DNA of 36,007 bases, from the NCBI GenBank assembly GCA_016867835.1, contig VGIQ01000013.1, positions 1 to 36,007 on the forward strand, given 5' to 3'. Under the pieces are notes generated by a model. It did no database searches, was not told the DNA's origin, and was given only the letters and a program-made list of their open reading frames with translations. The stretch comes from Calditrichota bacterium. Lineage in GTDB: Bacteria; Electryoneota; AABM5-125-24; Hatepunaeales; Hatepunaeaceae. The position numbers and the translations under genes were made by a program. Of this stretch, positions 17,364 through 30,850 are shown piece by piece (position 1 is the first letter of the stretch; every line of letters starts with the position of its first letter).

Positions 17364-17404
17364 AAACGAAACGCGACGCCTTCACGAGGCGTCGCGTTTC
17401 GTTT
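17364..17404 (+). terminator. Strong hairpin after the beta-helix gene
   Basis: A perfect 18-base inverted repeat (17364-17381 with 17387-17404) with a 5-base loop lies 17 bases after the stop. The stem carries AAACGAAACG on one side and CGTTTCGTTT on the other, so it can stop transcription in either direction between the convergent gene sets. Confidence 0.85.
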
Positions 17405-17691: not shown

Positions 17692-18144
17692 TTAGGCCTC
17701 GCGCTCAAATTTTCCCGCATTCTCGATCAGACCTTTGGCGATCTGCTCGCGGACTTCAGGTTGGTCATAGTAACCGGAAGCCAAGCGCTGGCGCAGTCCG
17801 GCAACTTCTTCCGTGGTGAGCGGCGGTATTGGATGACTCTCGGGATCCTGCGCCAGACGTCGCGCGGTTTCGGCTCGGACCTCAGATTGGTCGTAAAATC
17901 CACTCTTAAGTCGTGCTCGAGCGGCGTCAACTTTGTCCCGGCGAACATCGGGCAGGGCTTCATAGATCAGTTTGGTGCCGTTAAGGGCGCGGGCATCGGC
18001 TTCTGCCTGACGATTGATCTCAGCGCGATCGAAGGCTTCCTGAGAGGCAAGCGGAAAGCGCTCTTTGGGTGCTGCTTTCTCAACCGGGCGTGCCGGTGCA
18101 GCCGGTGCGACGCCGCGAAGGGGATGTTGGGGATCGATTTTCAT
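17692..18144 (-). CDS. Small protein with two FlgM-like repeats, candidate anti-sigma-28 factor
   Basis: The 150-residue protein has a disordered N-terminal half (Pro/Ala-rich, about 1-35) and two similar segments: RDKVDAARARLKSGFYDQ and following at about 69-97, and TEEVAGLRQRLASGYYDQ and following at about 111-140. Each matches the helix-G-Y-helix pattern of the FlgM C-terminal region (VxxLxxxIxxGxYxxxxxxIAxxLi). FlgM holds sigma-28 (FliA) inactive until the hook is finished and is then exported. The gene follows fliS by 9 bases with a good AGGAGA ribosome-binding site, and is the last gene of the flagellin transcript, which itself carries a sigma-28 type promoter. FlgM proteins usually have one such region, so the duplication is odd. 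The function is inferred from pattern and place. Confidence 0.6.
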   Translation of the reverse strand: MKIDPQHPLRGVAPAAPARPVEKAAPKERFPLASQEAFDRAEINRQAEADARALNGTKLIYEALPDVRRDKVDAARARLKSGFYDQSEVRAETARRLAQDPESHPIPPLTTEEVAGLRQRLASGYYDQPEVREQIAKGLIENAGKFEREA

Positions 18145-18153
18145 CAGCGTCTC

Positions 18154-18564
18154 CTATGAAACTAAGGCCGCTGCAGGAGTAGCCTGCTGGCGGTTCTGAC
18201 GGACCACCTCCCGCCAGGTCTCGCGCAAGTCTTCGAGCAGTTTGATTGCCATGTCGAGCGGCTCACTGGTGTTGCCGACATTTGCTAGCGTGATCTGACG
18301 TTCAATATAGGCATAGGCTTCACCCAGAGCCGCCGCCACTTCGCCACCGGCGTCGGGTCGCAGCGACGAGCGAAGCTCGCCGACGATGTCGAAGGCTCGT
18401 GCGAGCCATTTACCCCGCGCGACCTTGTCGCCTTTGGCTATGCACTCAGCAGCCGCCCGACAGAACCGGATCGCGGCGTCATACGAAGCCAGAATGAGAG
18501 CGCCCTGGTCGGCAGTGTCGTAGCGCACCTGATTGTAGCGCTGATAGGGATTGTAGGTAGTCAT
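18154..18564 (-). CDS. fliS: Flagellin export chaperone FliS
   Basis: FliS binds the C-terminus of newly made flagellin, prevents early polymerisation and guides it to export. The 136-residue protein begins MTTYNPYQRYNQVRYDTADQ, the typical N-terminus with the Y-x-x-Y and QG-type motif, followed by ALILASYDAAIRFCRAAAECI (the LI.mLYdgai.. helix) and the KLLEDLRETWREV C-terminal helix. ATG 18564 is preferred over the TTG one codon upstream. It lies 32 bases after fliD and is followed closely by the FlgM-like gene. Confidence 0.92.
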   Translation of the reverse strand: MTTYNPYQRYNQVRYDTADQGALILASYDAAIRFCRAAAECIAKGDKVARGKWLARAFDIVGELRSSLRPDAGGEVAAALGEAYAYIERQITLANVGNTSEPLDMAIKLLEDLRETWREVVRQNRQQATPAAALVS

Positions 18565-18596
18565 CAATATACGACAAATTAAGGCATTGAGCCGTT

Positions 18597-20276
18597 TTAG
18601 CCGCTCAGTGCGGCGTTAAGATAGTTACTTTGAGACCGCAACTGCCCCACCAACGACTCCATCACTTGAAACCGGCGGTTGTAGTTTTCTTCAATCCGTT
18701 TCAGGCGCGCCTCCCAACTTTCGATGCGGGAGTCGAGGCTCTTGATTGTGTCGTTGATTCGGTCGCGGTTATACTTAAGTCTTCCGTCGAGGTCGTCGGT
18801 AAGGCCTTCGATCTTCTCCGCAAGAAGCGATGACAGTCCCTTATAGACCCGCACCGTCCCGCTAATGCTGGAAGGTCCGTCTCCCGGATTGGTCAGAAGA
18901 AGGAGCAAGCCTTCGACGGCACTCCCAGTCTTACCCGCCAGGAGGCTGTTGCCGTGGATATTTCCATCCTCGCCGCCGATGGCGTTGGTCCCGCCGGAGT
19001 CGATCTTACCATCGGCGTCGTAAGAGATGGTAAAAGCATACTCTCCCCCTTGGGTCGCGTAATTGTTACCTGCGACACTGACGAAGCCGCTCGATGAGGT
19101 GGCGTCGAAAGCCAAAAGCCGGGCGACGGCGGTCGCATCAGCATCGAGGGCGGCTTCAAACTTCTTTGCATCAAGCGCTAACCTTCCGCCCGTTCCAATC
19201 GAAATCCCGATCTGTCCCAAACTCCGGTAGGTATCGTCTTCCGTCGTCCCGGGGATATTGGCCGCGACAAGCGCGGTTAGTTGCTGCTTTAGACTTCGAG
19301 CGAGCGAATCGCCGGCCAGCGGGCCGGCAACCTTGGTCTCGGCATTGTAAGCGGTCAGATTGGTGACCGTCGTGATCACATCGTTGAAGTCGCGGATCAG
19401 GTTGTTCACCTTATCCTTGACCGATGCCTTGTCGAGAGCGATCACAAGGGCGATGGCTTCTCCCGCCGAATCGCTCTTCAGATTCAAAGTTACACCCGGC
19501 AGGATGTTTTCAACCGTATTCGATGCCGATTCTATCCACGGGACCGGCCAGCCCCAGCCGGGATCGGGAAAGCCATCTACCCGAAGGCGGGCGTTTTGAG
19601 CGGTCTGGGTGGAATCCCATTCGGACGCATCGAAGTCGTCGCCGTCGCCGAGGTCGGTCGGATTGCCGCCGGTGTCAAGGATCGAAATGGTGTTATCTTC
19701 GCCGGTATCTTCACCGGTAAGAACCAGGTGATAGGCCGTCGCCCCACCGCTGCCGTCATTCAGTATCGAAGCGCGCACCCCGGGATTATCGGGGTCGTTG
19801 TTGATCAGGTTCACCAGTTGTGTCAGCGTCGTACCGTCGGGCACAGAAACCGACACCGCAGTGGCGCCAAATTGATAAGAAAAGGTCTGGTCGTCGCCGC
19901 TGTCGTTGACGGGGGTGCTATTGGCATCAGCCCAGCCGGTCGAGTGAACGAGGATATGACTGGTGGCGACCTGGTCGATCAGGACGGAATGGGTGCCGGC
20001 AATGGCTGAGGCTGAAGCGGTGGCGGTCAGTATGGTGTTGTCGGAACTCGAAGCCGACTTGATGAGCAGTTCGTTCGGGGTGTCGATGCCTTCCGCCGTC
20101 GCGCGCAGGGTCTTCAGTTTCGACTCGATGGAGTTCCAATTGGTTAACTGGTTGCTGTAAGTGGAGCGGCGTTCCTGGAGGGTTTCCAGGGGGCGTCGCT
20201 CGACCTGCATCAGCAGTTTGACCGTTTCAGCCCATTCGATACCGGACGAGAGTCCGGTGATATTGCCTACCGGCAT
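18597..20276 (-). CDS. fliD: Flagellar filament cap protein FliD
   Basis: FliD forms the cap at the filament tip and inserts flagellin monomers. The ATG at 20276 gives MPVGNITGLSSGIEWAETVKLLMQVERRPLETLQ, the classic FliD N-terminus. The frame is open further upstream, but those residues are low-complexity leader sequence. The 559-residue product has the N-terminal FliD domain (about 1-110), a middle D2/D3 region rich in Asp/Gly/Thr (about 110-300), the conserved SVKDKVNNLIRDFNDVITTV and LGQIGISIGTGGRLALDAKKFEAAL region (about 300-400), and a C-terminal coiled coil ending RRFQVMESLVGQLRSQSNYL. It is downstream of fliC across a structured 200-base spacer. Confidence 0.95.
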   Translation of the reverse strand: MPVGNITGLSSGIEWAETVKLLMQVERRPLETLQERRSTYSNQLTNWNSIESKLKTLRATAEGIDTPNELLIKSASSSDNTILTATASASAIAGTHSVLIDQVATSHILVHSTGWADANSTPVNDSGDDQTFSYQFGATAVSVSVPDGTTLTQLVNLINNDPDNPGVRASILNDGSGGATAYHLVLTGEDTGEDNTISILDTGGNPTDLGDGDDFDASEWDSTQTAQNARLRVDGFPDPGWGWPVPWIESASNTVENILPGVTLNLKSDSAGEAIALVIALDKASVKDKVNNLIRDFNDVITTVTNLTAYNAETKVAGPLAGDSLARSLKQQLTALVAANIPGTTEDDTYRSLGQIGISIGTGGRLALDAKKFEAALDADATAVARLLAFDATSSSGFVSVAGNNYATQGGEYAFTISYDADGKIDSGGTNAIGGEDGNIHGNSLLAGKTGSAVEGLLLLLTNPGDGPSSISGTVRVYKGLSSLLAEKIEGLTDDLDGRLKYNRDRINDTIKSLDSRIESWEARLKRIEENYNRRFQVMESLVGQLRSQSNYLNAALSG

Positions 20277-20357
20277 ACCGGGTCCCTGACTAACGTGCTT
20301 CCGCAGACCGGATACGGATGCTCTTGGCGGCACAGTGGGGCTTCCGGAATCCCCTTC

Positions 20358-20376
20358 AGGCTTGGCGTTCAAGCCT
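20358..20376 (-). other. Small hairpin in the fliC-fliD spacer
   Basis: AGGCTTG and CAAGCCT form a perfect 7-base stem with a 5-base loop in the transcribed spacer, next to the longer hairpin at 20390-20423. It may affect fliD mRNA stability or read-through. Confidence 0.4.
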
Positions 20377-20389
20377 TGTCGAGCGTTAA

Positions 20390-20423
20390 GGTGCGGGGGG
20401 AAGCGTAGCGTTCCCCCCGCACC
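20390..20423 (-). terminator. GC-rich hairpin downstream of fliC
   Basis: A perfect 13-base stem (GGTGCGGGGGGAA with its complement) and an 8-base loop lies 55 bases after the fliC stop on the transcribed strand. There is no T-tract, so it more likely weakens read-through or blocks 3' decay than acts as a full terminator. This fits high fliC and lower fliD expression. Confidence 0.5.
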
Positions 20424-20444
20424 GATCCTCATCCGCCGCCGTGA

Positions 20445-20462
20445 CCCCGGCTGCTACCGGGG
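20445..20462 (-). other. CCCCGG/CCGGGG hairpin just after fliC
   Basis: A 6-base perfect GC stem with a 6-base loop, 15 bases after the fliC stop. Likely part of the same 3' structure as the hairpin at 20390-20423. Confidence 0.4.
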
Positions 20463-20477
20463 TGAACTGACCGGTGG

Positions 20478-21311
20478 TTAGCCGATCAACTGGGCGACCG
20501 TCCGCGGGACCATATTGGCCTGCGACAGCATCGCCACGCCCGACTGCATCAGGATTTGCGCCCGGACGAAGTTGGACATTTCGGCAGCGACATCGGCATC
20601 CCGAATGGTCGATTCCGACTTGACGACGTTCTCGTTCGTCACTTGCAGATTCAGAATCGTATTCTGAAGCCGCTCGACGTAGGAACCGAGACGGGTCCGC
20701 TCGGTGTCCTTCGAGTTGATCGCCGTGTCGAGGGTATCGATGGCCGATTGGGCACTCGCGGTGTCGGTCAGAACCAGCGATCCGATGCCGAGGGACGAGG
20801 CGTCCATCGCATTCAGGTTGATCGTGTAGTAGTCCTGATTCGACACGTTGTTAGTGCCGATGTGGAACTTCAGATCTGCCGTCGCGTAGGTGCCGTCGAG
20901 CAGATTGAGTCCGTTGTAGTTCGTGACGTTCGCGATCCGGGTCACCTCGCTCTTCAGAGCCTGGAATTCCGTGTCGAGGATTTCCCGGTCTCCATCGAGG
21001 AGGGCTCCGTTCGACGCCTGCACCGCAAGCGCCCGCATCCGCACCAGTTTCTCGTCGATGACGCCCAGCGCCCCTTCGGCCGTCTCCAGCAGGTTGATGT
21101 TGTAGTTGGCATTACGCTCGGCTTCCTGCAGAGAAGCGATTTGGGCGCGGAAACGTTCCGATATCGCCAGACCGGCCGGGTCTTCCCAGGCATTGTTGAT
21201 ACGCAGACCCGACGAAAGGCGGTTGACCGCCTGGTCGAGTTGCGTCTGCGTAACCTGAAGATTCCGCTGCGCCGTAAGCGACAGAACGTTGTGATTGATC
21301 CGCGTGCTCAT
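20478..21311 (-). CDS. fliC: Flagellin
   Basis: This is the filament subunit, a short 277-residue flagellin. The N-terminal D0/D1 part is typical: MSTRINHNVLSLTAQRNL, then VNRLSSGLRINNAWEDPAGLAISERFRAQI, and INLLETAEGALGVIDEKLVRMRALAVQASNG. The C-terminal D1/D0 part is LGSYVERLQNTILNLQVTNENVVKSESTIRDADVAAEMSNFVRAQILMQSGVAMLSQANMVPRTVAQLIG. Only about 80 residues lie between, so the exposed D2/D3 domains are essentially missing. The last residues (QLIG) differ from the usual LLR/LLQ ending. A GGAGG ribosome-binding site lies 11 bases upstream and a near-perfect sigma-28 promoter about 45 bases upstream. Neighbouring glycosyltransferases suggest it is glycosylated. Confidence 0.97.
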   Translation of the reverse strand: MSTRINHNVLSLTAQRNLQVTQTQLDQAVNRLSSGLRINNAWEDPAGLAISERFRAQIASLQEAERNANYNINLLETAEGALGVIDEKLVRMRALAVQASNGALLDGDREILDTEFQALKSEVTRIANVTNYNGLNLLDGTYATADLKFHIGTNNVSNQDYYTINLNAMDASSLGIGSLVLTDTASAQSAIDTLDTAINSKDTERTRLGSYVERLQNTILNLQVTNENVVKSESTIRDADVAAEMSNFVRAQILMQSGVAMLSQANMVPRTVAQLIG

Positions 21312-22546: not shown

Positions 22547-24184
22547 TCAGTAACTCGCAAATCCCCTGCCAACCAGTGGCAGCATCGGCAACGGCACCCC
22601 CTTTTCCCCACCGGAAACAAGGTCGGACGCCATTCGACACCATCCGAGCAGACTTCTATAGAGCCGGGCAGTGCTGGCTGCAAGTCTCTCCAAGTCTTCA
22701 CCTTCCAGACCGTCTTTAGCCACGGTGAACTGACCGGCGAACGGCAGGAGATGGGGATGCTGCATCCCGAGACGGATTACCGCATCATCGATGAACTTCA
22801 GTTCGCCGGCTATATGCTCCAACCGGTTCAGGCTGCCGTTTCGACGCTGAATGTCAGGCAATTTGGCAACAAGTTCACTCCCCCGCACCGCCAGTTGTGC
22901 GAGGTCCATTAGTCCGGGAATGGTCGTCAGGGCAAAGGGAATCGCTGCACCGGGAGGCTCTTGATAAGTTGGGGGCTTTCCCAGGAAGTGCTTCCAGACC
23001 TGGCGAAGGATATCCGGCCACTCCGGTTCATGGTCGGATGATGACCCTAACAATTCAAGAACCAGGAAGCCCTCTTCATCAAGCCTTGTCCGACGCACCC
23101 GAAAGCCGGACGATGGAAGCATTGGAAACGTCCCATCCGTGAGCATTCCGGCGGCAAGCGAAGCGATCGCCGCCGGTGCAATATAACCGTGGCAGGCGAG
23201 ATGCCCGCAACGTTGCTTCGGCAGACAGGGATGACAGGCGATGACCGGCTCGACGACGACATGACCTTTGCCGTAAGGCGCCGTCTCCATCGCCATGGCG
23301 CTCCCGAGCACAACGCAAAGGACCTGGGTTCCGACAGCCGCGGCGATGTGCATCGTCCCGGTGTCGTTGGAGATAAGCAAGTCGCAACTCTCCAGCAGCG
23401 CCGCAAGTGTGGCAAGGTCGGTCTTTCCACCCTGGTCGCAGGCATTGGGAAGTGCACCGGCTATCGCGGCGGTCAAGTCGCGCTCGCTCTCCGAACCGAA
23501 GATCAGGAGACCGGTTCCGGTCGAGCGTTCAAGATCGCGAAGCGCTGCGACAAAGCCGTCTGCCGGATAGCGTTTTTCCGGCGTCGAAGCGCCGGGCACG
23601 AGGCCGACCAGACGGCGTCCGCTTAGTCCCAGACTGTTCAGCATTTCGGAGGCTCGCCGGCGAGCATCGTCAGGAACGGTCAATTCGGGAGGTCGGCTTT
23701 CGGTAACATCCCCGATCAGACGATGGATATCGACGATGTGGAACCGGTTCAACTGCCGGGAGAGGGTGCTGTTCAAGTAGTAAGCCGTCCAGTCGCCTTT
23801 GACGAGCCGCTCGCCCTGCCGGTCAAGCGTGACTCCGCTCGTCTCACGGCCACCGATCAACCTGCAAAGCGCAGCGCTGTAGGTGGTATGGGTGACGTTG
23901 ACCACCAAATCGAACCGCTCACGCCGGAGACTGTCGAGCATTTGACGCAGCGGGAGGTAGCAATCGGCAAGCCGTCCGCCCGGCTTGATGAGTGGGGCTA
24001 CGATCCGGCCCAATGGAAAGGGTATCCGTCGGGTCAAACCGGGCATCATTTCCGCGACGGCGCCGAAGGCGTCGGAATGAAAGAGCGCCACTTCGAAGCC
24101 CTTCTCCGCCAGACCCGCAATCAACGGACCGGACTGGATCAGGTCGCCCATCCGGGCGATGTTGACGACGAGCGCGCGCTTCAC
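22547..24184 (-). CDS. GT9-family glycosyltransferase (heptosyltransferase-like) with C-terminal extension
   Basis: GT9 enzymes transfer heptose or related sugars from nucleotide donors. The start is GTG at 24184, overlapping the CgeB-like gene in a GTGA junction. The N-terminus ALVVNIARMGDLIQSGPLI (4-22) is the family's acceptor-side Rossmann motif. LVPGAS (195-200) with EKRYP, and SNDTGTMHIAAAVGT (272-286), are the donor-side motifs. A four-Cys cluster (ACHPCLPKQRCGHLAC; Cys317, 320, 326, 331) follows, as in some family members. About 185 residues beyond the GT9 core (about 360-545) form a helical extension unlike typical LPS heptosyltransferases. Its place between flgL and fliC suggests flagellin or filament modification rather than LPS core synthesis, though both remain possible. 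Confidence 0.88.
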   Translation of the reverse strand: MKRALVVNIARMGDLIQSGPLIAGLAEKGFEVALFHSDAFGAVAEMMPGLTRRIPFPLGRIVAPLIKPGGRLADCYLPLRQMLDSLRRERFDLVVNVTHTTYSAALCRLIGGRETSGVTLDRQGERLVKGDWTAYYLNSTLSRQLNRFHIVDIHRLIGDVTESRPPELTVPDDARRRASEMLNSLGLSGRRLVGLVPGASTPEKRYPADGFVAALRDLERSTGTGLLIFGSESERDLTAAIAGALPNACDQGGKTDLATLAALLESCDLLISNDTGTMHIAAAVGTQVLCVVLGSAMAMETAPYGKGHVVVEPVIACHPCLPKQRCGHLACHGYIAPAAIASLAAGMLTDGTFPMLPSSGFRVRRTRLDEEGFLVLELLGSSSDHEPEWPDILRQVWKHFLGKPPTYQEPPGAAIPFALTTIPGLMDLAQLAVRGSELVAKLPDIQRRNGSLNRLEHIAGELKFIDDAVIRLGMQHPHLLPFAGQFTVAKDGLEGEDLERLAASTARLYRSLLGWCRMASDLVSGGEKGVPLPMLPLVGRGFASY

Positions 24185-25941
24185 GCCAGGTCCTTATCTC
24201 GCGCCCAATGACGAAACTCGTTCATTAACAGAAAGGTTGTCTCAGCCCGGGAAAGGCGGTGGGCGCACTGAGACAGAATGCGACCGGCGACATCCTCGAG
24301 GGTAACGGCTCCCGCATCACGGTGCGGCTCGAGGAGAGCGCGCAGTTCATCGTCGTCGCCGGCGACCTTCAAAAACGAGGCGACCGAGTCGGGATGGCGA
24401 TGCGATGCCGGGCCGTCCTCATAGGAAAAAATGAACTCGAGCGCGGCGGCCATACGCAACTCGTAGGTATGCTCGGCCAGTACCCTCTGTCGACCGGCCT
24501 CGGCTATTGCTTTACGTCGGTCGGGATCGTTTAGAAGCGCCTTTACTTCAGATACCATTTCGTCGCCATTGCCGAAAAGGACCAGTTCCCTGCCGGGTTG
24601 GAAGTGGTCAGGTAAAAGTTGCCGCTGGTCGATCAGTTGCGCTCCTCCGCAGGCAGCGATCTCAAAGGTGCGGGGATTGAGAAAGTCGCCCTCCGGATTA
24701 ACGCCGTCGTGAAAGGCCGAAGAGTGGAGGTTGACATTGACGCGGGTGGCGTTAAAAACTTTCACCGTATCGGAGGTAGTGAGCCGTTCACCTCCGCGCT
24801 GCAGAAAGGGAGTTACGGCGCCGGCGCCGTCCCAGTCGTTGCCCCAGAGTTTGAAGTCGAGTCCCGTAAAGCGGCTGAACAGCATACGCCGATTGCGGTA
24901 GCCGGCTCCAACATGGGAGAGGTCGCTACCGAAGATGGCACGGTCATCTTCAGAAAGTTCAAGCGGCCGATGGATGGTCGGATCGGCAGCCAAAGGCAGG
25001 TAGTTCGATCGCCGAACACCCCGGGTGGCAAGGGCTTCTTGCAGGCGGCCCCGTTGAATGGTGAAGAAGTAGGAGAATAGCGGCGCCCATTCCTGCCAGT
25101 AGGTGAAGAGTTGCCAGTCCTCGACGAACCAGAAGGCGGTTGGAATGCCGAGTCGTTTCAGTTCTGCGAGCGCGGCAGGCGTCACAGGCGATTGCGCCAC
25201 GAACCAAACCAAATCGACAGCCCGCTCGTAGGCAAGCGTGAGCATCTCGTCCGCGACGAGGGAGGTCATGAGACCGGTCAGATGCTTGCGGCGGGACTTG
25301 TCGCGCACCAGAGCCTCGTGCCGCCGCCGGAGCGGATCGAACAGTTCGTTGTCGCTGGTGATGACGTTGTGCCCGAGCCGCTCGAACGCCGCGGCACAGT
25401 AACGGGCAATCGGCAGCGAGCCGCCATAGAGCGGCGTAACGACAAGAATGTTAAGCCGGGCCGGAACCGAGCGCCGCGAAGCCGTCAGGAGCCGTTCCAA
25501 TTCGCCAAACCAGACCTGATGGAGATGAACTGAAGGCGGATGTCGGACAATGTGGAGGGTTTCATTGGGGTCGGCACCGAGTAGGTGTCGCGCCTTTTCC
25601 AAAGTCTCGGCCGGGGTAAGCCCGGGGATGACGAGGAGGCCGTCGAGTGCGTCGGGCCGACGCTCGCGAACAATCGGAACGAGTTGGTCGTCCGGCTCGA
25701 CTACGACCAGTCTGCCAGAGTGGATCTTCCGGACGGCTACGGCAAGATAGCCGAGGCCCAACCCGAAGATCAGCACCGGCGCTTCTTCAGGCACGTCCTT
25801 CAGAGCGTTCCGGGCGGCCTGTTCAGCCTCCCGAAACGGATCGTAGGCGCTATGCATCTGCAGGTCGCCGATGCGCAGCGTCGGGACGCCGCTCCGGGCA
25901 GGGATAATTTCGTAGCGATTGCTCAGAGATCGCTCAGGCAT
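24181..25941 (-). CDS. CgeB-like glycosyltransferase with Maf-like N-terminal domain
   Basis: The 586-residue protein appears to join two parts. The N-terminal ~165 residues (IGDLQMHSAYDPFREAEQAAR, then APVLIFGLGLGYLAVAV and VVVEP) resemble the HS-YDP-EA and GLGLGY motifs of Maf motility-associated factors, which glycosylate flagellin. From about 165 on it is a GT4-like CgeB/DUF3880 type enzyme: ILVVTPLYGGSLPIARYCAAAFERLGH, then the sugar-nucleotide half with SDLSHVGAGYRNRRML and NPRTFEIAACGGAQLIDQRQLLPDHF, ending near HTYELRMAAALEFIF. It overlaps the upstream GT9 gene by 8 bases and the downstream one by 4. A flagellin glycosyltransferase role is an inference from the Maf-like part and location. 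Confidence 0.82.
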   Translation of the reverse strand: MPERSLSNRYEIIPARSGVPTLRIGDLQMHSAYDPFREAEQAARNALKDVPEEAPVLIFGLGLGYLAVAVRKIHSGRLVVVEPDDQLVPIVRERRPDALDGLLVIPGLTPAETLEKARHLLGADPNETLHIVRHPPSVHLHQVWFGELERLLTASRRSVPARLNILVVTPLYGGSLPIARYCAAAFERLGHNVITSDNELFDPLRRRHEALVRDKSRRKHLTGLMTSLVADEMLTLAYERAVDLVWFVAQSPVTPAALAELKRLGIPTAFWFVEDWQLFTYWQEWAPLFSYFFTIQRGRLQEALATRGVRRSNYLPLAADPTIHRPLELSEDDRAIFGSDLSHVGAGYRNRRMLFSRFTGLDFKLWGNDWDGAGAVTPFLQRGGERLTTSDTVKVFNATRVNVNLHSSAFHDGVNPEGDFLNPRTFEIAACGGAQLIDQRQLLPDHFQPGRELVLFGNGDEMVSEVKALLNDPDRRKAIAEAGRQRVLAEHTYELRMAAALEFIFSYEDGPASHRHPDSVASFLKVAGDDDELRALLEPHRDAGAVTLEDVAGRILSQCAHRLSRAETTFLLMNEFRHWARDKDLA

Positions 25942-27076
25942 AAGCGCTTATTCCAAGGGAGACGGGGAACGCTATCCGGGGGCTTGTAATATCTATCCAA
26001 TCAAGTCCTTCAAATGAAAGGTGCGATTCCAGGAGACGAACCCGGTCGGACAGTGCCGGAAATCGTCCCGACAGAAAAGCGTATGCCGCAGCGGCTACAT
26101 CGTCCGGTCGCAATTGTCTCCGATAGAGTTCGGGATGACGCTCCAACTCGCACTCGGAGACCGGATAGGTGACGTTCACTGGCGTTAGAACCCAGTGCCC
26201 GTTGCCATAGGGTCCGGTCTGGCGGTGGAACATCGAGCCGTAGTAAAGGCCTAATACCGGTGTCCCAACCATCGCTGCAATGTGGAGTGGCCCGGTGTCG
26301 GTGCCGATCACGAGGCGGGCGCGTTTAAGAATTGCTGCCAGTAGCCCAATATCTGTCCGACCGCAGAGGTCGATCACCCGTCGTCTGGTCGTTTGGATCT
26401 GGGTTACGATCTTCCGGGTGGTATCGATCTCCCGCTCCGATCCGACAAGCACGACGTCCCGGTCAACTGCGAGGCTGTCGATGACGGAAGCCCACGATTC
26501 GACCGGCCAGTGCCGGGCAGGGAGACCGGCTCCGGGCAGGATGACGATGAACTCGTTCGATTCATCGAGGCTCTCGCTTGCAAGCCAGCCGTTGCAACTG
26601 AGGATTAGTTCTTCCGGCAGTTCGAGCGGTCGGAATCGACTCCGGTCGTAGTCTCCGGCAGCATAGTCGAGCCAGAGATCGCTCAGGTGGCAGGCATCGG
26701 ACCGGCTTCGTGTCGCCGGGTCAAAGAGCGGCGCCAGCACCGCGTCGGGCAATTCGCTCTTTAGCACTGAACCGATCCGGGGGCCAAACTTATGACCGGC
26801 ATCGATTGCCTCCAGGAGAAGCGCTGCAAGCGGGTGGTAGTTGAGATTGATGGCACTTCCCGCTGAGCAACCCGCAGCAAGCGCGATAGTCGCCGTTGCT
26901 GCAGCCCGCAATTCAACGTGGGATGAGGACGACGCCACCAGGCGCTGCAGTTCCTCAATAGGTATCGCTGTTGTCCGCTCCGGGCCTGCCATCAGGATGG
27001 CGAGTGCGGCCGTCCGCCGATCGACGATCAGGCTGACGGCATCCCGGCCAAAATGCTGCTGAAGGCAGTCCACCAA
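25934..27076 (-). CDS. GT9-family glycosyltransferase with unclear or damaged start
   Basis: The 380 residues from TTG 27076 have the GT9 donor motifs (VILPGAGLPARHWP; GTDTGPLHIAAMVGTPVLGLYYGS) and a C-terminal region with YPVSECELE. The conserved N-terminal phrase is missing from this start but is encoded just upstream in the same frame: ILQIARPGDLAQTWPLVDCL, directly comparable to VVNIARMGDLIQSGPLI in the neighbouring GT9. That frame stays open to 27148, yet has no ATG, GTG or TTG before the motif. The place where the Met should be is filled by four AGAATGC-type heptamers. Either a rare start (ATT or CTG) is used, or the start was lost. It is in the same leftward run as flgL and the other two glycosyltransferases. 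Confidence 0.8.
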   Translation of the reverse strand: MVDCLQQHFGRDAVSLIVDRRTAALAILMAGPERTTAIPIEELQRLVASSSSHVELRAAATATIALAAGCSAGSAINLNYHPLAALLLEAIDAGHKFGPRIGSVLKSELPDAVLAPLFDPATRSRSDACHLSDLWLDYAAGDYDRSRFRPLELPEELILSCNGWLASESLDESNEFIVILPGAGLPARHWPVESWASVIDSLAVDRDVVLVGSEREIDTTRKIVTQIQTTRRRVIDLCGRTDIGLLAAILKRARLVIGTDTGPLHIAAMVGTPVLGLYYGSMFHRQTGPYGNGHWVLTPVNVTYPVSECELERHPELYRRQLRPDDVAAAAYAFLSGRFPALSDRVRLLESHLSFEGLDWIDITSPRIAFPVSLGISAYA

Positions 27077-29558: not shown

Positions 29559-30056
29559 CTATAACCTGCGGTCGAGGATCAGATGTGGTGTGCCGCGGGA
29601 GCGTCGGGCGCCGTTCGGCTGATAGACCATGGCGGTGTCGCCCTCGTCGATGAAGAGGTCGATATTGCGCTCGATGAAGGAGAGCGAACGCTTGATCAGG
29701 TATTGATTGACCCGGTTGGCCTTGCGGACCTTCTCCACTAATCGTGAGAGGACCGTTTTAAGGCTCTTCAGGTCATCCGACGACTCGCCGAGGTTCAACT
29801 CGATCAGCCGGGTGATAGTAATGTCGTCTTCGGTTCCGGCGGCAGCGGCAACCTCTTTGACCACCTTGATACGGCCATCTTCCAATTGCCGGATTCGGCC
29901 GATGAGCGATTCCTGCTCGCGAACACTGGTGTCGAAGGCGTCCATCTGGTTCTGGATGATCGCCTCGCGCTGGCGGTTCAGGCAGTCGAGGAACTCCTCG
30001 AGAACGTGCTCCTCTTCACGGATCAAGGCGATAAGTCTATCGATAAGGTCTTTCAT
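29559..30056 (-). CDS. flgN: Flagellar export chaperone FlgN
   Basis: FlgN keeps FlgK and FlgL unfolded and brings them to the export gate. The 165-residue protein has the FlgN pattern: LIALIREEEHVLEEFLDCLNRQREAIIQNQMDAFDTSVREQESLIGRIRQLED, then a second helix pair (LSRLVEKVRKANRVNQYLIKRSLSFIERNIDLF). The ATG overlaps the flgJ-like stop by 4 bases, and a GGAG lies about 10 bases upstream. Placement directly before flgK and flgL, its clients, supports the call. Confidence 0.88.
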   Translation of the reverse strand: MKDLIDRLIALIREEEHVLEEFLDCLNRQREAIIQNQMDAFDTSVREQESLIGRIRQLEDGRIKVVKEVAAAAGTEDDITITRLIELNLGESSDDLKSLKTVLSRLVEKVRKANRVNQYLIKRSLSFIERNIDLFIDEGDTAMVYQPNGARRSRGTPHLILDRRL

Positions 30057-30850
30057 TCGGTCACGCTCCGGGTGGACGATGAGGGCGTCGCGGACGGGGT
30101 GGTCCGGGTCTGACGCCAGGCGGTGAGCACTTTCTGGATATAATCTTCGGTTTCACGGTAGGGTGGCACACCCCCATGGCGATCTACCGCCCCCGGTCCG
30201 GCATTGTAAGCCGCCAGAGCCAGTCGCGGATCGCCGTCGTAGCGGTCGAGCATACGCTTCAGGTAGGCGGCTCCTCCCTCGATATTCTGGCCTGGATTCA
30301 ACGAGTCCGAGACACCTAATTCGCGAGCCGTCGTATCCATCAGTTGCATCAAGCCTTTGGCGCCCTTGGGCGAAACCGCTTTGGGATCGCCGCCAGATTC
30401 GACCGCAATGACGGCACGAACCAGCGCTGGATCGAGGTCGTGACGAATCGCGGCGCGCTCGACGAGGGCGTCGAGGTGGGGAGGCGCGAGTCGCTCTGGA
30501 CGAACTGCCGGTCGGTTCAAGACCAAAGGCAACGAGGTGTTCGCTGCCGGCTCGCTGCCAGTCTGCTGATCGTAATGCTTCATTAGGACTGCGGCCAAGC
30601 CGAGCGGGCTCTTCTCGCTCAACCGAACGGCCAACTGCCAGTCAAAGAGTTCCTGATAGGGGTTGTTCCATCCACCTGTTACGACACCTTCACCGTCGCC
30701 GGTGAGTGCCATCGCCGAGCGCTTCATCACCTGCAGCATCTGGTTAATGAAGAGGGCTTCGAAATGATGCGCTGCTTTGGCCAGGCGCTCCCGATCGAGG
30801 GGCTGCGACGAACCGGCAGGATCGGGGCGTATGTCAGTAATAGTGCTCAA
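30053..30850 (-). CDS. flgJ: FlgJ-type rod protein fused to SLT lytic transglycosylase
   Basis: FlgJ helps assemble the rod and opens the peptidoglycan for it. The 265-residue protein starts with TTG. Residues about 22-95 are the rod-binding domain (KAAHHFEALFINQMLQVMKRS...GGWNNPYQELFDWQLAVRLSEKSPLGLA). Residues about 125-245 are a soluble lytic transglycosylase domain: AVIAVESGGDPKAVSPKGAKGLMQLM with the catalytic Glu151, AYNAGPGAVDRHGGVPPYRETEDYIQKVL. In E. coli FlgJ the second domain is a GH73-type glucosaminidase instead, so this is the other known enzyme type in the same place. A Ser/Thr-rich tail follows. It lies between flgI and flgN, 16 bases after flgI. Confidence 0.92.
   Translation of the reverse strand: MSTITDIRPDPAGSSQPLDRERLAKAAHHFEALFINQMLQVMKRSAMALTGDGEGVVTGGWNNPYQELFDWQLAVRLSEKSPLGLAAVLMKHYDQQTGSEPAANTSLPLVLNRPAVRPERLAPPHLDALVERAAIRHDLDPALVRAVIAVESGGDPKAVSPKGAKGLMQLMDTTARELGVSDSLNPGQNIEGGAAYLKRMLDRYDGDPRLALAAYNAGPGAVDRHGGVPPYRETEDYIQKVLTAWRQTRTTPSATPSSSTRSVTE

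Follow-up and report, generated by a model that had tools for sequence, protein, structure and literature searches.

A FlgM-family protein with a duplicated sigma-28-binding unit at the end of the flagellin gene run of a Calditrichota bacterium

The window analysed here, a stretch of 36,007 nucleotides from a Calditrichota bacterium (contig VGIQ01000013.1), carries a gene for a FlgM-family protein in which the sigma-28-binding unit is present twice. We consider it fairly probable that this protein is the FlgM of the genome, with its sigma-binding unit duplicated within the gene, and that it acts as a brake on FliA with negative feedback. The open-access papers searched contained no account of a doubled FlgM. 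The gene, its parts and its surroundings are as follows.

17692..18144, minus strand: flgM with a duplicated sigma-28-binding unit (150 aa)
17848..17949, minus strand: unit 1, at the canonical FlgM position (unit profile E 5.3e-15, with the protein's own two units included among the profile rows, and a FlgM profile match)
17722..17823, minus strand: unit 2, the extra C-terminal copy (E 3.0e-15 with the same profile, its own two units likewise included; profile-profile match and alignment)
18028..18144, minus strand: disordered N-terminal segment, residues 1-39, presumed export region (pLDDT 46-56, TIGR03824 match)
18154..18567, minus strand: fliS (PF02561, 104.6 bits), 9 bases upstream of flgM
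18597..20432, minus strand: fliD (PF07195, PF02465)
20478..21311, minus strand: fliC, flagellin (PF00669, PF00700)
21382-21355, minus strand: predicted sigma-28 promoter TAAAGTTT-N12-GCCGATAA (16/16 consensus bases)
17364..17404, no strand assigned: strong hairpin, likely a bidirectional terminator (-41.2 kcal/mol, z -6.7)

The frame at 17692-18144 had been proposed in a first-pass annotation that gave no strand; it exists, lies on the minus strand, and opens with an ATG preceded by an AGGAG ribosome site. The two repeats of the 150-aa protein (LPDVRRDKVDAARARLKSGFYDQSEVRAETARRLAQD and IPPLTTEEVAGLRQRLASGYYDQPEVREQIAKGLIEN), which had been noticed beforehand, occupy residues 64-100 and 106-142; they can be aligned gap-free and share a helix-SG[FY]YD-helix pattern. 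Their local BLOSUM62 score is 77, against a best of 54 among 5000 half-shuffles, and shuffling of the whole protein (n=1000, any split) gave a best local score of 48. Profiles of unit 1 and unit 2, each built from 20 relatives, match one another with E 1.8e-16. In addition, an AlphaFold2 model based on the family alignment predicts a helix at residues 40-63 and one helix pair at each repeat (69-80/87-99 and 111-122/129-149; block-mean pLDDT about 75-97), and leaves segment 1-39 disordered, which would be compatible with flagellar type III export. The N-terminus, MKIDPQHPLRG, is FlgM-like, and the TIGR03824 match begins at residue 2.

The identification as FlgM was upheld by Pfam PF04316, which scores the whole protein at 28.7 bits in two stretches and above the cut-off of 25. 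The NCBI equivalog TIGR03824 (E 6e-7) gives 30.1 bits where 40.75 are required, which counts against the favoured explanation; however, a sister single-unit FlgM reaches only 21.6 bits, below even the Pfam cut-off, and both models therefore appear to under-score this clade. Judged by these matches, the doubled protein would count as FlgM under Pfam's broad definition of the family and not as the equivalog. Every one of the 20 family members has a FlgM match, the strongest at E 8.1e-09. When each repeat was searched separately, as had been suggested, unit 1 alone matched FlgM in 19 of these 20 members, whereas unit 2 alone was weak against Pfam (E 0.06-0.1) and matched in 5 of the 20, which also weighs against the favoured explanation and makes the FlgM assignment of unit 2 dependent on the family profile. 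Against a canonical profile comprising E. coli FlgM and seven single-unit FlgM-type proteins from other phyla, unit 1 matched with a probability of 96.6 (E 5.7e-10) and unit 2 with 94.2 (E 1.1e-7) over the same FlgM columns, each E-value referring to a single comparison and not to a database, whereas the unrelated helical protein FliS, used as a control, gave 0.3 and 0.2 and hence no match. Thus each repeat by itself resembles the sigma-28-binding part of FlgM, as the first reading had it, and the two-helix C-terminal segment, usually single in FlgM (Pfam makes no formal requirement of this), is present twice according to both profile matches and modelled helices. Alignment with canonical FlgM, including that of E. 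coli, begins at residue 1, reaches about residue 100 and does not extend into unit 2, so that unit 2 represents the added part; the FlgM-like stretch upstream of the unit is found at unit 1 only. A Foldseek search with the AlphaFold2 model returned no FlgM match in the PDB, another point against the favoured explanation, although a model of free FlgM is not expected to resemble the wrapped form. The family profile found a weak FlgM match in the PDB (9wsf_B, E 0.0016).

Compared with E. coli FlgM (L156 1336-1629), the doubled protein shows the same N-terminus, disordered first part and PDxR..RV helix-G-Y-helix unit, and it further resembles E. coli FlgM and PF04316 in its predicted sigma-28-dependent expression and flagellar neighbourhood. 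It differs in having a second C-terminal helix-G-Y-helix copy and a turn loop longer by about two residues. The genomic place is different as well, as E. coli flgM adjoins flgN, whereas the doubled gene comes after fliS; in this genome flgJ and flgN share 4 bases, which leaves no room for a gene between them. The FlgJ-like protein (window 30053-30850) combines a transglycosylase SLT domain (100.7 bits) with a weak rod-binding part.

Gene order and promoter agree with what the first-pass annotation had claimed: flgM is the last gene of a fliC-fliD-fliS-flgM run, and a perfect sigma-28 box stands at the head of this run, before fliC, whereas chance alone would give the window about 3 sites with at least 12 matches. 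The gaps within the run are short, from which transcription from the sigma-28 promoter through to flgM appears likely. Such read-through is also suggested by the lack of any recognised U-tailed terminator between the genes of the fliC-flgM run and by the position of the strong hairpin, which comes only after flgM, about 300 bases past it and before a convergent plus-strand gene. A GC-rich hairpin sequence without a U tract, CCCCGG-TAGCAG-CCGGGG, lies between fliC and fliD (window 20433-20477) and may damp transcription past flagellin or stabilise the flagellin message. Elsewhere in the window, three minus-strand genes read as sugar transferases (22547-27076) are located between the fliC run and flgL, and possibly constitute a flagellin glycosylation set.

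A PF04316 search of the 2.9 Mb assembly revealed no FlgM besides this gene, and the expectation that a separate canonical flgM would be lacking was thereby confirmed. A scan of genome contigs with a single protein gave no matches. One further candidate (G000:C64, 12.7 bits) was rejected, as it lies inside a sugar-transferase-like gene without a FlgM-sized frame. The genome encodes one cognate FliA (237 bits against a cut-off of 189.6); a second candidate (G000:C9, 127.6 bits) falls under the cut-off and has a primary-sigma-type sequence. With a single FliA, two different FliA paralogues are excluded as targets, and two copies of one FliA remain.

FlgM is known to wrap FliA and to block sigma2 and sigma4 (PMC4598750), and in Salmonella FlgM the helix-favouring stretches at residues 60-73 and 83-90 are essential for anti-sigma activity (PMC6275026). 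FlgM is secreted upon hook completion, and Salmonella FliS binds FlgM and restrains its export (PMC8527033). We propose that unit 1, which sits at the position of the canonical sole unit, most likely makes the canonical FliA contact, and that unit 2, given that its conserved residues are those of unit 1, most likely binds against the same FliA, where it would either raise the affinity or cover a second part of the surface. FliA would thus be kept inactive until the hook-basal body is complete, and FlgM would then be exported via the flagellum. The place of flgM at the end of the sigma-28-driven fliC-fliD-fliS-flgM run would mean that active FliA renews its own brake together with flagellin and the FliS chaperone.

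The doubling is no isolated oddity in the phylum. The named relatives are metagenome-assembled genomes labelled LCP-89, Calditrichaeota or unclassified bacterium, labels in line with the part of the FCB group that comprises Electryoneota/AABM5-125-24 and LCP-89. In 19 of 39 phylum genomes (families f1, f6 and f4), a single frame in the same position contains both units with significant scores. The second unit is weaker in G014 (f2) and divergent in G012 and G017 (f5 and f7), and in G032 the locus is cut by a contig end. Single-unit proteins are found in 13 genomes (families f3 and f8), and 3 of the 39 lack any unit, two of them also lacking a FliA over the cut-off. The third, G007 (G007:C315, L157), a relative in the same family, has a FliA over the cut-off and no FlgM by any profile used. 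The tandem families keep the fliC-fliD-fliS-flgM order, the placing of flgM behind fliS is shared across the phylum, and a sigma-28 box with 13-15 of 16 matches occurs in ten relatives at about the same distance upstream of fliC. The single-unit FlgM of family f3 (for example L115 1366-1674, 102 aa), which follows fliD and fliS in the genomes read, is alike in place, unit and phylum and differs in the absence of unit 2. The f3 genomes also encode a second, very short protein (65-90 aa) that carries a single GYY/GFY unit and is encoded away from the flagellar cluster (L129 4446-4706, L131 4046-4243, L132 3953-4225, L136 3800-4066), which often adjoins purA and in one scanned locus has an HD_5-domain gene nearby; a Pfam scan of one such protein gave no match. 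In family f8 (L137), a place similar to this short-protein locus is followed by motA/motB-like genes.

Both units share a conserved pattern in which R precedes a turn with G and Y, and A follows it; in unit 2, Y is found in 20/20 members and G, R and A in 18/20. Unit 2 is less conserved than unit 1, which again tells against the favoured explanation. It is conserved inside families and differs between them, to the extent that the unit 2 copies of f1, f4 and f6 are no more alike than unit 1 is to unit 2; this divergence between families also fits loosened constraint.

Tandem forms were also observed at loci labelled Gemmatimonadetes or Latescibacteria (L051, L053 and L054), with a perfect sigma-28 box directly upstream of flgM itself at L054. 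A search of 386 genomes found the unit in 44 genomes of other phyla, and among 15 loci read there a clear second unit was seen in three frames (L141, L143 and L147) and a weak one in a few. The presence of tandem forms in other phyla indicates that doubling is a recurrent variant. A single ancient duplication and several duplications are indistinguishable by phylogeny, since 33 residues carry no tree (25 of the 45 forks are open in the tree of 33-residue units). The second units of the Latescibacteria/Gemmatimonadetes-labelled proteins score higher with the phylum's unit 1 profile than with its unit 2 profile, and the sequences thus lean to separate duplications there. On one contig of a genome from another phylum (G381), two single-unit FlgM-like genes are adjacent (L149 780-1145 and 1222-1626), a pair that is possibly intermediate to the tandem protein or an alternative for it.

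Other explanations for the second unit have to be considered. One FlgM chain might hold two FliA, one per unit, so that a single export event would free two sigmas. The occurrence of the same conserved pattern in both units and their modelling as separate helix pairs with a linker would suit this arrangement, but the canonical FlgM segment that wraps one FliA is longer than one unit (PMC4598750), the upstream FlgM-like stretch accompanies unit 1 only, and unit 2 is the more divergent between families; we regard this arrangement as unlikely. We give about the same low credence to the idea that FliA is bound by unit 1 whereas unit 2 now serves a different partner, for which FliS is the most likely candidate; the supply of flagellin chaperone would then be coupled through this protein to sigma-28 activity. 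The fliS-flgM order kept across the phylum, the binding of FlgM by FliS that holds back export in Salmonella (PMC8527033), and a unit 2 conserved in families and different between them, as a changed partner might give, all point in this direction. Against it, the single-unit FlgM of f3 also follows fliS, so that adjacency to fliS needs no unit 2.

Weaker conservation of unit 2 and its divergent form in f5 and f7 could also mean that the extra copy is tolerated and does little by itself. This appears improbable, as several families of the phylum have kept two units in which Y, G, R and A are invariant or almost so, two units are met with again in other phyla, and a functionless stretch would hardly keep the pattern. 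Least credible is a chance resemblance of generic amphipathic helices to FlgM, which the profile tests already disfavour: such short units do produce spurious PDB matches (the bromodomain and Pumilio protein matches of the unit profiles were rejected as chance), but the Pfam cut-off is passed, the N-terminus is FlgM-like, the genome has no other FlgM, the run is flagellar and sigma-28-driven, and the FliS control comparison was negative.

The closest published parallel to the doubled FlgM is the twin-motif RsiG of Actinobacteria, an anti-sigma factor of WhiG, which is a FliA-family sigma, that arose by internal duplication of a single-motif protein (PMC8325347). Both are alike in opposing, or in our case probably opposing, a sigma-28-type factor and in the passage from single to twin motif by internal duplication. 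RsiG differs in its c-di-GMP-binding coiled-coil motif, E(X)3S(X)2R(X)3Q(X)3D, which is not the FlgM unit and was not seen on reading the doubled protein sequence, and no homology is claimed.

FlgM is a textbook example of how gene expression can follow the assembly of an organelle, and the sharpness with which late genes are switched on is set by its 1:1 binding. The doubled families of this phylum and their single-unit sister families offer a natural comparison of how the stoichiometry and affinity of the brake shape the switch. We tentatively suggest, as a possibility we hold to be well below even, that proteins with two working units form a distinct bivalent class of flagellar anti-sigma factors, which arose several times by internal duplication and spans this phylum, the Latescibacteria/Gemmatimonadetes-labelled genomes and other phyla. 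If so, such a class would differ from the 1:1 switch of textbook FlgM in its stoichiometry or in releasing the sigma factor more steeply.
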